Below are positions 51,574 to 53,528 of a stretch of DNA of 64,000 nucleotides, one piece after another. How positions within the stretch are numbered: position 1 is the first letter of the stretch; the number at the start of each line of letters is the position of its first letter. The translations under genes were made by a program, and so were the position numbers. The notes beneath the pieces are model-generated. The model was not told where the DNA came from. It worked only from the letters and a program-made list of their open reading frames with translations, and made no database searches. Origin of the DNA: Sphingomonas sp. Leaf242 (GTDB taxonomy: Bacteria > Pseudomonadota > Alphaproteobacteria > Sphingomonadales > Sphingomonadaceae); assembly GCF_001422045.1 (NCBI RefSeq), contig NZ_LMLW01000008.1, forward strand, positions 252,501 to 316,500, read 5' to 3'.

Positions 51574-51644
51574 CCGTTCGTGCTGAGCGAAGTCGAAGCA
51601 CCTTCGCTTGGGTCACACCCTTCGACTTCGCTCAGGGCGAACGG
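51574..51644. repeat. Palindromic element, family G
   Basis: Inverted repeat of 71 bp built on CCGTTCGTGCTGAGCGAAGT and ACTTCGCTCAGGGCGAACGG, a sphingomonad-type repeat with two more copies at 52460-52611 and 52937-53032. It lies after the chorismate mutase gene. Confidence 0.9.
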
Positions 51645-51702
51645 AAGGCGGGGGCGAACGGAGGCGGGGGCGAACGGAAGGCGGGGGCGGACGGAAAGGG
51701 GT
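51645..51702. repeat. Short tandem repeat
   Basis: Three near-identical units of about 17 bp, AGGCGGGGGCGAACGGA, the last slightly altered (GGACGGA). They contain the CGAACGGA end of the family G element next to it and probably arose by slippage from it. Confidence 0.85.
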
Positions 51703-51716
51703 GAGCCGGGCAGGAA

Positions 51717-52898
51717 TCAGCCCCGCGGCCGCTTCCCCGCCAGCGACGACAACACCCCGCGGAGAGTCCGGACCTCCTGCGACGACCAGCCGGGCTTCGT
51801 CAGCAACGTCCGCAGCGTCCGCCGCGTCGACTGCATCTTGTCGGGCAGGTGGAAGAACCCCGCCCCCGTCAGCATCACATCGAGCTGCCCGATCATCCCG
51901 TCGAGCTCCTCCTGCGGTGCAGGCGGCATGATCGGATTGATCGATGGCTGCGACAGCGCGCGATCGGCGGTCAGGCCCTTCGACCATTCATACGCGACCA
52001 GAATCACCGCCTGGGCGAGGTTGAGCGAACCGAACTCAGGGTTGATCGGCACCGTGATGATCGTCCGCGCGACCGCGACGTCGTCGGTTTCGAGCCCGGA
52101 ACGCTCGGGCCCGAACAGGATGGCGGAGCGGCCGGGCGCGGCGTGGATCTCGGTCGAGGCCTGTTCGGGGGTGACGACGGGCTTGGTTACGCCGCGTTTC
52201 CGCACTGTGGTGGCGTAGATCTGCGCGCAATCGGCGGTGGCGGCGGCGACGCTGTCGTAGACCTTGGCGTTCTGGAGCACGATGTCGGCACCGCTGGCGG
52301 CGGGACCGGCAGAGGGGTTGGGCCAGCCGTCCCTTGGGGAGACTAGGCGCATCTCGGTTAGGCCGAAGTTGAGCATCGCGCGCGCGGCCTTGCCGATGTT
52401 TTCGCCGAGTTGGGGGCGGACCAAGACGATGACTGGGGGTGGGGTTTCGTCCGCCAAGGTGCTTCGACTTCGCTCAGCACGAACGGGGGGGGGAGATGGG
52501 GGCCCCTCCCCCTCTTCCGATCGGTCGTGGGTCTCACCACCCGAAATGACACGCTTCTCCTCTTCCGAAGAGATGCCCCCCCCTTCCGTTCGCCCTGAGC
52601 GAAGTCGAAGGGCCCGCTCCCGCGGGGGGATCGCCGCGTCGTGCAAATCCGCCCAATCCTCACGCGCGAGCGCTTCCTTCTTGCGCCGCGACCAACCCTT
52701 GACCTGGAACTCCGCTGCAAGCGCTTCCTGCCGGCTGCCGAAATCCTGGCACCACATGAGCGTCACCGGCCGGCGCGTCTGGGTGTATCCCGATATCTCG
52801 CCGAGGTTATGCTGGCCGATCCTGCGCTCCAGGTTATCGGTATGTCCGGTGTAATAACTGTTGTCGGCGCAGCGCACCACATAGGCCCAGAATGTCAT
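51717..52898 (-). CDS. GIY-YIG domain fused in frame to TrmJ-like RNA methyltransferase
   Basis: A single 393-residue frame with three parts. Residues 1-90 are a GIY-YIG nuclease-type domain (MTFWAYVVRCADNSYYTGHT). Residues about 91-150 are encoded by a family G repeat pair (RALRLRSGRTEGG and VRAERSRSTLADE), so this linker is translated repeat. Residues about 153-393 are a SPOUT methyltransferase like TrmJ, with PVIVLVRPQLGENIGKAARA, ILFGPERSGL and INPEFGSLNLAQAV (SAM knot), which 2'-O-methylates tRNA position 32. A TTG at 52457, at the repeat edge, could start the methyltransferase alone. Either a real fusion or two genes joined by repeat insertion. Confidence 0.85.
   Translation of the reverse strand: MTFWAYVVRCADNSYYTGHTDNLERRIGQHNLGEISGYTQTRRPVTLMWCQDFGSRQEALAAEFQVKGWSRRKKEALAREDWADLHDAAIPPRERALRLRSGRTEGGGISSEEEKRVISGGETHDRSEEGEGPPSPPPVRAERSRSTLADETPPPVIVLVRPQLGENIGKAARAMLNFGLTEMRLVSPRDGWPNPSAGPAASGADIVLQNAKVYDSVAAATADCAQIYATTVRKRGVTKPVVTPEQASTEIHAAPGRSAILFGPERSGLETDDVAVARTIITVPINPEFGSLNLAQAVILVAYEWSKGLTADRALSQPSINPIMPPAPQEELDGMIGQLDVMLTGAGFFHLPDKMQSTRRTLRTLLTKPGWSSQEVRTLRGVLSSLAGKRPRG
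52460..52611. repeat. Palindromic element, family G, inside the fused gene
   Basis: Inverted repeat of about 152 bp with CTTCGACTTCGCTCAGCACG and CCCTGAGCGAAGTCGAAGGG arms and a GC-poorer centre holding TCTTCCGATCGG and TCTTCCGAAGAG. It is entirely within the coding frame. Confidence 0.88.
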
Positions 52899-52936
52899 CG
52901 GGGCGGCTTACGCGGGGGCGTGGTGTCGGGACAAGT

Positions 52937-53032
52937 CCTTCGACTTCGCTCAGGACGAACGGGGTTGGGTGTTGAACTTGCTACCAGGGGCAGACATTAC
53001 CCTACCCGTTCGCCCTGAGCGAAGTCGAAGGG
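52937..53032. repeat. Palindromic element, family G
   Basis: Inverted repeat of 96 bp with CCTTCGACTTCGCTCAGGAC and CCTGAGCGAAGTCGAAGGGT arms. It separates the fused gene from nrdR. Confidence 0.9.
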
Positions 53033-53063: not shown

Positions 53064-53528
53064 TCACTCCGCCCGCCCAACCTCCTCAACGCTCCCGGCA
53101 AAAGCCTCGAAGTCCTTCGCCTCGCTGAAATCCCGGTACACACTAGCAAACCGGATATACGCCACGGAATCGAGCCCCTTGAGCCCGTCCATCACCATCT
53201 CGCCGATCCGCTTCGACGTGACGTCGTTCTCGCCCAGCGTCTCCAGCCGCCGCTGAATACCGCTCACCAGCTTCTCGATACGCCCAGCCTCGATCGCCCG
53301 CTTCCGCGTAGCGATCGACAACGACCTGAGCAGCTTCTCCCGATCGAACGGCTCCCTGCGCCCCTCGCTCTTCAGCACGAACAGCTCGCGCAACTGGATC
53401 CGCTCGAACGTCGTGAAACGCGCGGCGCAGCCTTCGCATTGGCGCCGGCGTCGGATTGCCGCCCCGTCTTCGGTGGGGCGGCTGTCCTTTACCTGGCTGT
53501 CTTCATGTCCGCAAAAGGGGCAGCGCAT
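53064..53528 (-). CDS. nrdR: Transcriptional repressor NrdR
   Basis: Zinc-finger, ATP-cone repressor of ribonucleotide reductase genes. It is 154 residues: [20 protein letters not shown] and [15 protein letters not shown] form the zinc ribbon, and residues about 50-140 are the ATP cone that senses ATP/dATP. It starts next to the stop of the small glycine-zipper gene. No ribonucleotide reductase gene is in the window. Confidence 0.97.

Follow-up and report, generated by a model that had tools for sequence, protein, structure and literature searches.

A GIY-YIG domain joined to a TrmJ-type methyltransferase through a translated palindromic repeat in Sphingomonas

Organization of the fused gene and its repeats

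By translation of the 64,000-nucleotide stretch of Sphingomonas sp. Leaf242 DNA analysed here (the window), a single uninterrupted frame of 393 codons was identified on the minus strand (52898..51717), running from an ATG start to a TGA stop. The encoded 393-residue protein carries, in this order, a GIY-YIG domain, a linker derived from a repeat, and a TrmJ-type SPOUT methyltransferase (Table 1); the gene upstream is presumably nrdR, as judged from its family resemblance. In the Pfam search, the GIY-YIG profile PF01541 matched residues 4-74 (60.5 bits, cut-off 22.6) and the SpoU_methylase profile PF00588 matched residues 156-303 (77.9 bits, cut-off 29.7). A frame of this composition had been described in an earlier note on the same DNA, and both the translation and the Pfam matches confirmed it, on the minus strand. 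The match to NCBIfam TIGR00050 (TrmJ/YjtD family) at residues 157-386 scored 158.1 bits, slightly below the cut-off of 167.15, and the equivalog NF011694 gave 106.5 bits against a curated cut-off of 280. The protein is therefore named TrmJ-type, and not a curated member of TrmJ.

Among solved chains, the top phmmer match was TrmJ 5GRA (E 5.3e-104), from Zymomonas mobilis by its title. The top Foldseek matches were also Z. mobilis TrmJ chains, with 69-70% identity and a best E of 3.4e-27 for 5GRA; the rmsd of 15.9-19.4 across the whole 5GRA match indicates that the parts are positioned differently. In an AlphaFold model built from an alignment of 46 fused proteins (mean pLDDT 76.1, pTM 0.47), the GIY-YIG part was modelled confidently (pLDDT 90-98 for residues 1-80), and residues 101-150, with pLDDT below 50, are predicted to be disordered. 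Confidence was uneven for the TrmJ part (10-residue pLDDT means between 47 and 94), which is modelled as a SPOUT domain with a C-terminal helical extension (helices 329-345, 352-367 and 373-386). The nearest solved relatives of the GIY-YIG part by profile were the UPF0213 proteins 1ZG2 (E 6.7e-22) and 1YWL (E 2.9e-18), and no NCBIfam family was found for this part. Both tyrosines, the arginine and the glutamate are the catalytic residues of GIY-YIG enzymes. Residues Y6, Y16, G18, R26, H30 and E63 were each kept in 94-97 of 97 fused relatives and, by its profile match together with the catalytic residues, the window protein belongs to the GIY-YIG superfamily.

The repeat TTCGACTTCGCTCAGNNCGAACGG is present in 28 exact copies in the 4.3-Mb genome, several of them forming inverted doublets, and the reversed-pattern control gave no copy. 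Six of the 28, the only exact copies in the window, lie within 1.46 kb (51574-53029) around and inside the fusion gene, and the remaining 22 are elsewhere in the genome. Two inverted copies are located within the linker, in agreement with the earlier reading of the linker as translated repeat. The copy directly upstream of the nuclease start and the one at the 3' end of its GIY-YIG sequence flank the nuclease in mutually inverted orientation, so that the linker contains one arm of an inverted repeat, the downstream one, and the other arm precedes the nuclease gene. Between the upstream arm and the start codon, we noted a promoter-like motif, a consensus match to a loose pattern of our own; motifs of this CTTGTC-17-CGTAAG type were found in 48 of 110 loci. 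At its distance of 8 nt from the start codon, the motif would yield a nearly leaderless mRNA.

Table 1. Features in and around the fused gene (positions in the window)
Feature	Position	Strand	Evidence or remark
GIY-YIG domain (UPF0213-like), residues 1-84	52647..52898	-	PF01541, conserved residues, pLDDT, 1ZG2/1YWL
Linker, residues 85-155, mostly repeat-derived	52434..52646	-	Translation, repeats, pLDDT, pN/pS of relatives
TrmJ-type SPOUT 2'-O-methyltransferase domain, residues 156-393 and stop	51717..52433	-	Pfam, NCBIfam, phmmer, Foldseek
nrdR (presumed), gene upstream of the fusion	53064..53528	-	ORF list, junction DNA of relatives
Promoter-like CTTGTC-17-CGTAAG	52907..52935	-	Between upstream repeat and start codon; ends 8 nt before start
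Repeat at 3' end of GIY-YIG part (downstream arm of inverted pair)	52586..52609	-	Translated LRLRSGRTE
Repeat directly upstream of GIY-YIG start (upstream arm of inverted pair)	52939..52962	+	Exact match
Second linker repeat, opposite orientation	52463..52486	+	Translated VRAERSRST
Outer upstream repeat, between nrdR and cassette	53006..53029	-	Exact match
Doublet downstream of trmJ, one copy	51574..51597	-	Exact match
Doublet downstream of trmJ, second copy	51621..51644	+	Exact match

The nrdR-trmJ junction in related genomes

The genus sample consisted of 295 genomes, in 292 of which TrmJ was detected at E<=1e-60, always as a single match except for one genome with two (G201). For 216 of these genomes the nrdR-trmJ junction was classified from DNA: the nuclease was fused in frame to TrmJ in 98, present as a split gene in 15, and absent in 103. 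Since some loci were fetched for their GIY-YIG match, 98/216 is not an unbiased frequency, and the 15 split loci indicate that the fusion is not obligatory. One of the 98 (L270) carries a vestigial nuclease, and most counts below use 97. Among the remaining 79 genomes, 11 look fused in the search tables, with one open frame for both parts and no stop. In a one-genome-per-species collection, the in-frame fusion was observed for 27 of the best 80 of 559 loci coding for a relative of the window's GIY-YIG domain; the records of the 27 carry the names Sphingomonas, Sphingobium, Sphingopyxis, Rhizorhabdus, Erythrobacter, Aurantiacibacter or alphaproteobacterial MAG. The search for the same domain pair in other Sphingomonadales that the earlier note proposed was thus positive, and its proposed sign to the contrary, separate GIY-YIG and TrmJ genes in relatives, was encountered in the 15 split loci but not in the 98 fused ones. 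Recurrence of the fused state throughout the genus, with quite different repeats, rules out a recent private fusion through repeat insertion. In two loci, L008 (G029) and L047 (G285), the GIY-YIG part is frame-shifted and the frame into TrmJ is open, either by decay or by sequencing error.

The linkers of the 97 fused loci (L270 left out) were of 43 distinct lengths, between 28 and 100 codons. Along 5014 linker codons, stops numbered 66 and 136 in the shifted frames against none in frame; as the latter is part of the definition of a fused locus, the informative figure is 98 fused versus 15 split. No ATG, GTG or TTG was present within 25 codons before TrmJ in 45 of the 97 fused loci, as compared with 1 of 103 loci lacking the nuclease, and the whole linker was devoid of these codons in 23 of the 97. 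For 19 pairs chosen to share the cassette type, dN/dS was 0.090 for GIY-YIG, 0.519 for the linker and 0.059 for TrmJ, and for nine pairs with linkers of equal length the linker pN/pS was 0.56 in the coding frame against 0.99 and 1.49 in the shifted frames. The linker lengths, the shifted-frame stops and the dN/dS values rule out a chance open frame in GC-rich DNA. The 43 open lengths, the missing internal starts and the dN/dS values altogether support translation through the linker, and with it the two-domain protein suggested earlier. Production of TrmJ alone from TTG 52457 had been offered as the alternative. This codon (Leu148) does exist, 8 codons before TrmJ, and an extra short product is accordingly possible in the window species; as an account of the fused loci in general, internal initiation is contradicted by the 45 and 23 loci without such codons. 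As judged from these comparisons of sequence, the GIY-YIG/TrmJ fusion is genuine, occurs widely within the genus and evolves under constraint as a protein.

Among the loci without GIY-YIG, nrdR was located in 88, and in 67 of these the stop of nrdR and the start of trmJ overlap as xTGA, suggesting that the nuclease entered between the two genes; a cassette entering at this overlap would have parted trmJ from its start. The earlier view that an insertion merely erased the stop of the GIY-YIG gene is at variance with this overlap, and with the repeat belonging to the nuclease cassette. A leader motif, GATA(A/G)G, was detected in 29 of 98 fused loci, in none of the 15 split loci, and before the trmJ start in 9 of the 88 loci without GIY-YIG; these nine might be traces of a lost cassette, and an ordinary promoter element would look alike. 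Genome G282 retains, in frame with TrmJ, about 55 codons of a GIY-like remnant (E 3.8e-5). On a FastTree tree of TrmJ and NrdR, the fused state requires at least 27 changes, 14 of them on well supported branches, and gains and losses are thus indistinguishable. Genome G113 carries 41 repeats of the general pattern and no GIY-YIG match at 1e-18, yet has the cassette-like leader motif at its trmJ locus (L222).

Exchange of the nuclease between near-identical trmJ genes was examined for 108 loci, the 113 with a nuclease less five with a remnant, broken or frame-shifted GIY-YIG (L270, L025, L144, L267 and L047). TrmJ was at least 93% identical in 355 pairs, and GIY-YIG was below 78% in 151 of these. 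For 150 of the 151 discordant pairs, the GIY-YIG of one member had a better match, by over 3 points, in a genome whose TrmJ was below 88%; as the pairs overlap, many of them within the window's own clade, they are not independent, and 150 is no count of events. Identity along the locus was compared for 25 planned pairs, one of which was absent. Between genomes G009 and G220, DNA identity was 95% for nrdR and 94% for TrmJ, and between the two genes it fell to 49% for the leader, 69% for GIY-YIG and 56% for the linker. The same drop was observed for G317 and G219. Near-identical TrmJ genes thus carry different nuclease-repeat cassettes, and on this identity evidence the cassette is exchangeable at a fixed site. 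The identity profiles of eight pairs gave no clear co-conversion tract beyond the exchanged cassettes, and such tracts were dropped as a proof of homing.

Association of GIY-YIG genes with palindromic repeats

The same GIY-YIG family was found away from trmJ. Of 30 rows for such loci in the genus (L177-L213), 19 were located before era, 9 before dnaG and 1 at another site, and 1 (L194) proved to be at trmJ; era and dnaG are our assignments by motif resemblance. Within the genus, the family appears confined to a small number of sites. In-frame joints with other partners were also detected: the nuclease reads into an FGGY kinase in a Gallionellaceae MAG (L308:2501-3964), and into a JAB-domain protein in Erythrobacter crassostrea (L362:2501-3199). 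The TrmJ joint is one of several, and so more likely a property of the cassette than an answer to a particular requirement of TrmJ.

Bracketing of the nuclease by repeats was scored as the best inverted match between the 250 bases before the GIY-YIG start and the 320 bases from codon 80 on, with a threshold of at least 36. This was reached by 77 of 97 fused loci (20 below), 4 of 15 split loci (11 below) and 27 of 30 standalone loci, and by none of 87 trmJ genes without GIY-YIG. The standalone set comprised 28 genus loci and 2 from other families; L182 (short flank), L194 (duplicate of the split trmJ locus of G276) and L270 (vestige) were dropped from scoring. In the one-genome-per-species collection, 58 of the best 80 of the 559 named loci passed, against 2 of 822 slid windows as control. 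The passing records are from several phyla and include Methylobacter, Nitrotoga, Gallionella, Thermodesulfobacteriota, Binatia, a Chloroflexi MAG and Sulfuricurvum, these non-sphingomonad records being mostly MAG contigs that may be misbinned. In a class-wide set (GIY-YIG matches at E<=1e-12, one locus per genome, the truncated L292 dropped), 11 of 27 loci passed, against 0 of 338 slid windows.

Within the window genome, 4 of 6 other GIY-YIG loci passed, again against 0 of 338 slid windows. One GIY-YIG gene (L166, G000:C9:337176-337628) carries inverted copies of a different palindrome, CACCCCGGACTTGTTCCGGGGTCCA, on both sides; this palindrome is present in 36 copies in the genome at up to 2 mismatches, with none in the control. 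The further paralogues L168, L169 and L170 have flanking inverted repeats of their own, and for L167 and L171, the latter UvrC-like as we take it from motif resemblance, the flanking repeats were below threshold.

A Y1 (HUH) transposase is the known partner of REPs. Search for Y1_Tnp (PF01797) gave no match in 51 of 61 genomes, the window genome among them, and a match in the other 10. By one repeat pattern, and with copies beside GIY-YIG genes included, the repeat number averaged 10.2 in the 170 genomes positive for GIY-YIG (E<=1e-18; at least 5 repeats in 88) and 1.0 in the 125 negative ones (at least 5 in 4). The association was strong without tree control (p 2e-23). With tree control, in a run in which G216 was wrongly entered as lacking GIY-YIG, about 5.3 pairs differed in the same direction, 0.6 in the opposite direction and 16.1 not at all, and the link weakened to a median p of 0.125. 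We regard the genome-wide link as suggestive after tree control, and it was dropped as a proof. Repeats were also found in four genomes without a GIY-YIG match at E<=1e-18, namely G113 (41), G264 (14), G302 (7) and G305 (5). A reading as defence system was given up, as PADLOC gave no match.

Relation to known systems and interpretation

The earlier note knew of no described family with this domain pair, but a case from Erythrobacter litoralis had been in print since 2006-2007. A GIY-YIG/SPOUT fusion was described there with the partner called a TrmH orthologue, and a role in RNA metabolism was proposed for it (Dunin-Horkawicz 2006, PMC1564403). Citing that paper, Tkaczuk (2007, PMC1829167) named the protein ELI_05635 and assigned the partner to COG0565 (TrmJ). 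The window protein has the same domain order and the same partner family, and fused relatives from Erythrobacter and Aurantiacibacter are among those found here. In the available portions of the two papers, ELI_05635 is presented as a single case, with no mention of repeats, spread, cassette exchange or start-codon evidence (PMC1564403, PMC1829167). Among titles and opening lines of abstracts in the open-licence literature, with part of the matches covered, no report linking GIY-YIG nucleases with bacterial REP-type repeats was found, and a word search of one REP survey (PMC12306157) gave none of 'GIY', 'RAYT' and 'Sphingomon'. The domain pair has thus been in print once, and its anatomy seems new with respect to the linker containing a repeat arm, the cassette being exchangeable, and the bracket extending far beyond the genus.

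The arrangement resembles several known systems in part. RAYTs are Y1/HUH tyrosine transposases that accompany REP palindromes, the latter also forming REPINs. Here too, short palindromes of the 20-40 bp class are dispersed, partly as inverted doublets, and inverted copies of one such palindrome stand on either side of a small nuclease gene; the enzyme, however, is a predicted GIY-YIG nuclease, and the window genome gave no Y1_Tnp match. Free-standing GIY-YIG homing endonucleases, such as the Seg proteins of phage T4, are likewise encoded by small intergenic genes at fixed sites and undergo cassette replacement between relatives. They differ from the window cassette, known here from sequence alone, in the flanking palindromes and the C-terminal fusion to a host enzyme. 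The closest solved relatives, 1ZG2 (107 residues) and 1YWL (96 residues), were entered as hypothetical proteins and lack a partner domain; we take such small UPF0213-type proteins to be COG2827. Rickettsia palindromic elements occur inside reading frames, and there too a palindromic repeat is translated within a protein. The window repeat differs from these elements in being part of a nuclease cassette and in joining two domains.

As the explanation of the trmJ locus, we consider it probable that an exchangeable and presumably selfish nuclease-repeat cassette took over the translation start of trmJ. The cassette, in which copies of a palindromic repeat (REP) in inverted orientation enclose a small GIY-YIG nuclease gene, would have entered the nrdR-trmJ junction where the trmJ start overlapped the nrdR stop, and so have separated trmJ from its start codon. 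Translation would then be carried into trmJ by the cassette's own start codon and by the downstream REP, read as a flexible linker. The TrmJ part may still methylate position 32 of the tRNA anticodon loop, its activity presumably being unchanged. The GIY-YIG part would be active as a DNA nuclease and favour the persistence and exchange of the cassette. Its targets would probably be alleles that are free of the cassette or differently typed, or REP hairpins, with the cassette being copied by repair; the spread of the cassette would follow, by analogy, the manner of a free-standing homing endonuclease.

Another reading is a domesticated two-domain RNA enzyme, of which the GIY-YIG part acts on RNA or aids TrmJ, for instance in tRNA surveillance or processing, and which is kept for the joint work of the pair. 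The high number of fused loci (98/216), the span of the fusion over Sphingomonas, Sphingobium, Sphingopyxis, Rhizorhabdus, Erythrobacter and Aurantiacibacter records, the purifying selection on GIY-YIG and the RNA-metabolism role proposed in the available text of 2006 (PMC1564403) are all consistent with such an enzyme. We nevertheless judge it unlikely, as 103 of 216 relatives are without GIY-YIG at the locus, GIY cassettes are exchanged independently of TrmJ, and linker length is free. Occurrence of the same family before era (19/30) and dnaG (9/30), and in frame into the FGGY kinase and the JAB-domain protein, also argues against a partnership specific to TrmJ.

Even less probable, in our estimate, is the reading in which a repeat, by insertion or expansion, did no more than remove the stop codon of a long-standing GIY-YIG neighbour, with TrmJ produced chiefly from an internal start. 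The linker shows the evolution of a coding sequence, 45 of the 97 fused loci have no start within 25 codons, overlap of the nrdR stop with the trmJ start is seen in 67 of the 88 loci lacking GIY-YIG, and the repeat flanks the nuclease gene away from trmJ as well (27/30); these features weigh against that reading more than TTG 52457, the 52 of 97 fused loci with some start codon within 25 codons and the existence of split loci speak for it. The repeats might also serve only as terminators or promoters, or mark insertion hot spots beside small genes, and accompany GIY-YIG genes incidentally. The promoter-like motif directly upstream of the start (48/110), the location of 22 of the 28 exact TTCGACTTCGCTCAGNNCGAACGG copies away from the locus and the weakening of the genome-wide link to a suggestive one under tree control would then find a simple explanation. 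Flanking inverted pairs in 58 of the best 80 of 559 named loci versus 2 of 822 slid windows, their presence at GIY-YIG loci across the class (11 of 27) and at others of the window genome (4 of 6) but in none of 338 slid windows, and the second GIY-YIG gene with a different, 36-copy palindrome on both sides make such an incidental association very improbable.

Beyond the takeover of trmJ by a cassette, a wider proposal is offered tentatively, with somewhat less than even confidence. Small GIY-YIG nucleases of one subfamily would supply the enzyme for a large class of palindromic repeats that is independent of RAYTs, the GIY-YIG gene with its inverted REPs being the autonomous element and the dispersed doublets its non-autonomous derivatives. 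Each subfamily would have its own repeat, at which the element spreads or homes through the action of the nuclease, and the element would persist by capturing host translation through the translated 3' repeat, as with TrmJ, the FGGY kinase and the JAB-domain protein. The nuclease may be what moves or spreads the repeats.

Palindromic repeats are frequent in bacteria. For the window genome and 50 of the 60 others searched, in which no known REP transposase was found, the repeat-bracketed GIY-YIG family, observed in records of several phyla, is a concrete candidate partner, and a single purified protein with a single repeat would suffice to test this partnership. The trmJ locus would illustrate how such a cassette can join a host enzyme, taking over its start codon while the repeat becomes a protein linker.
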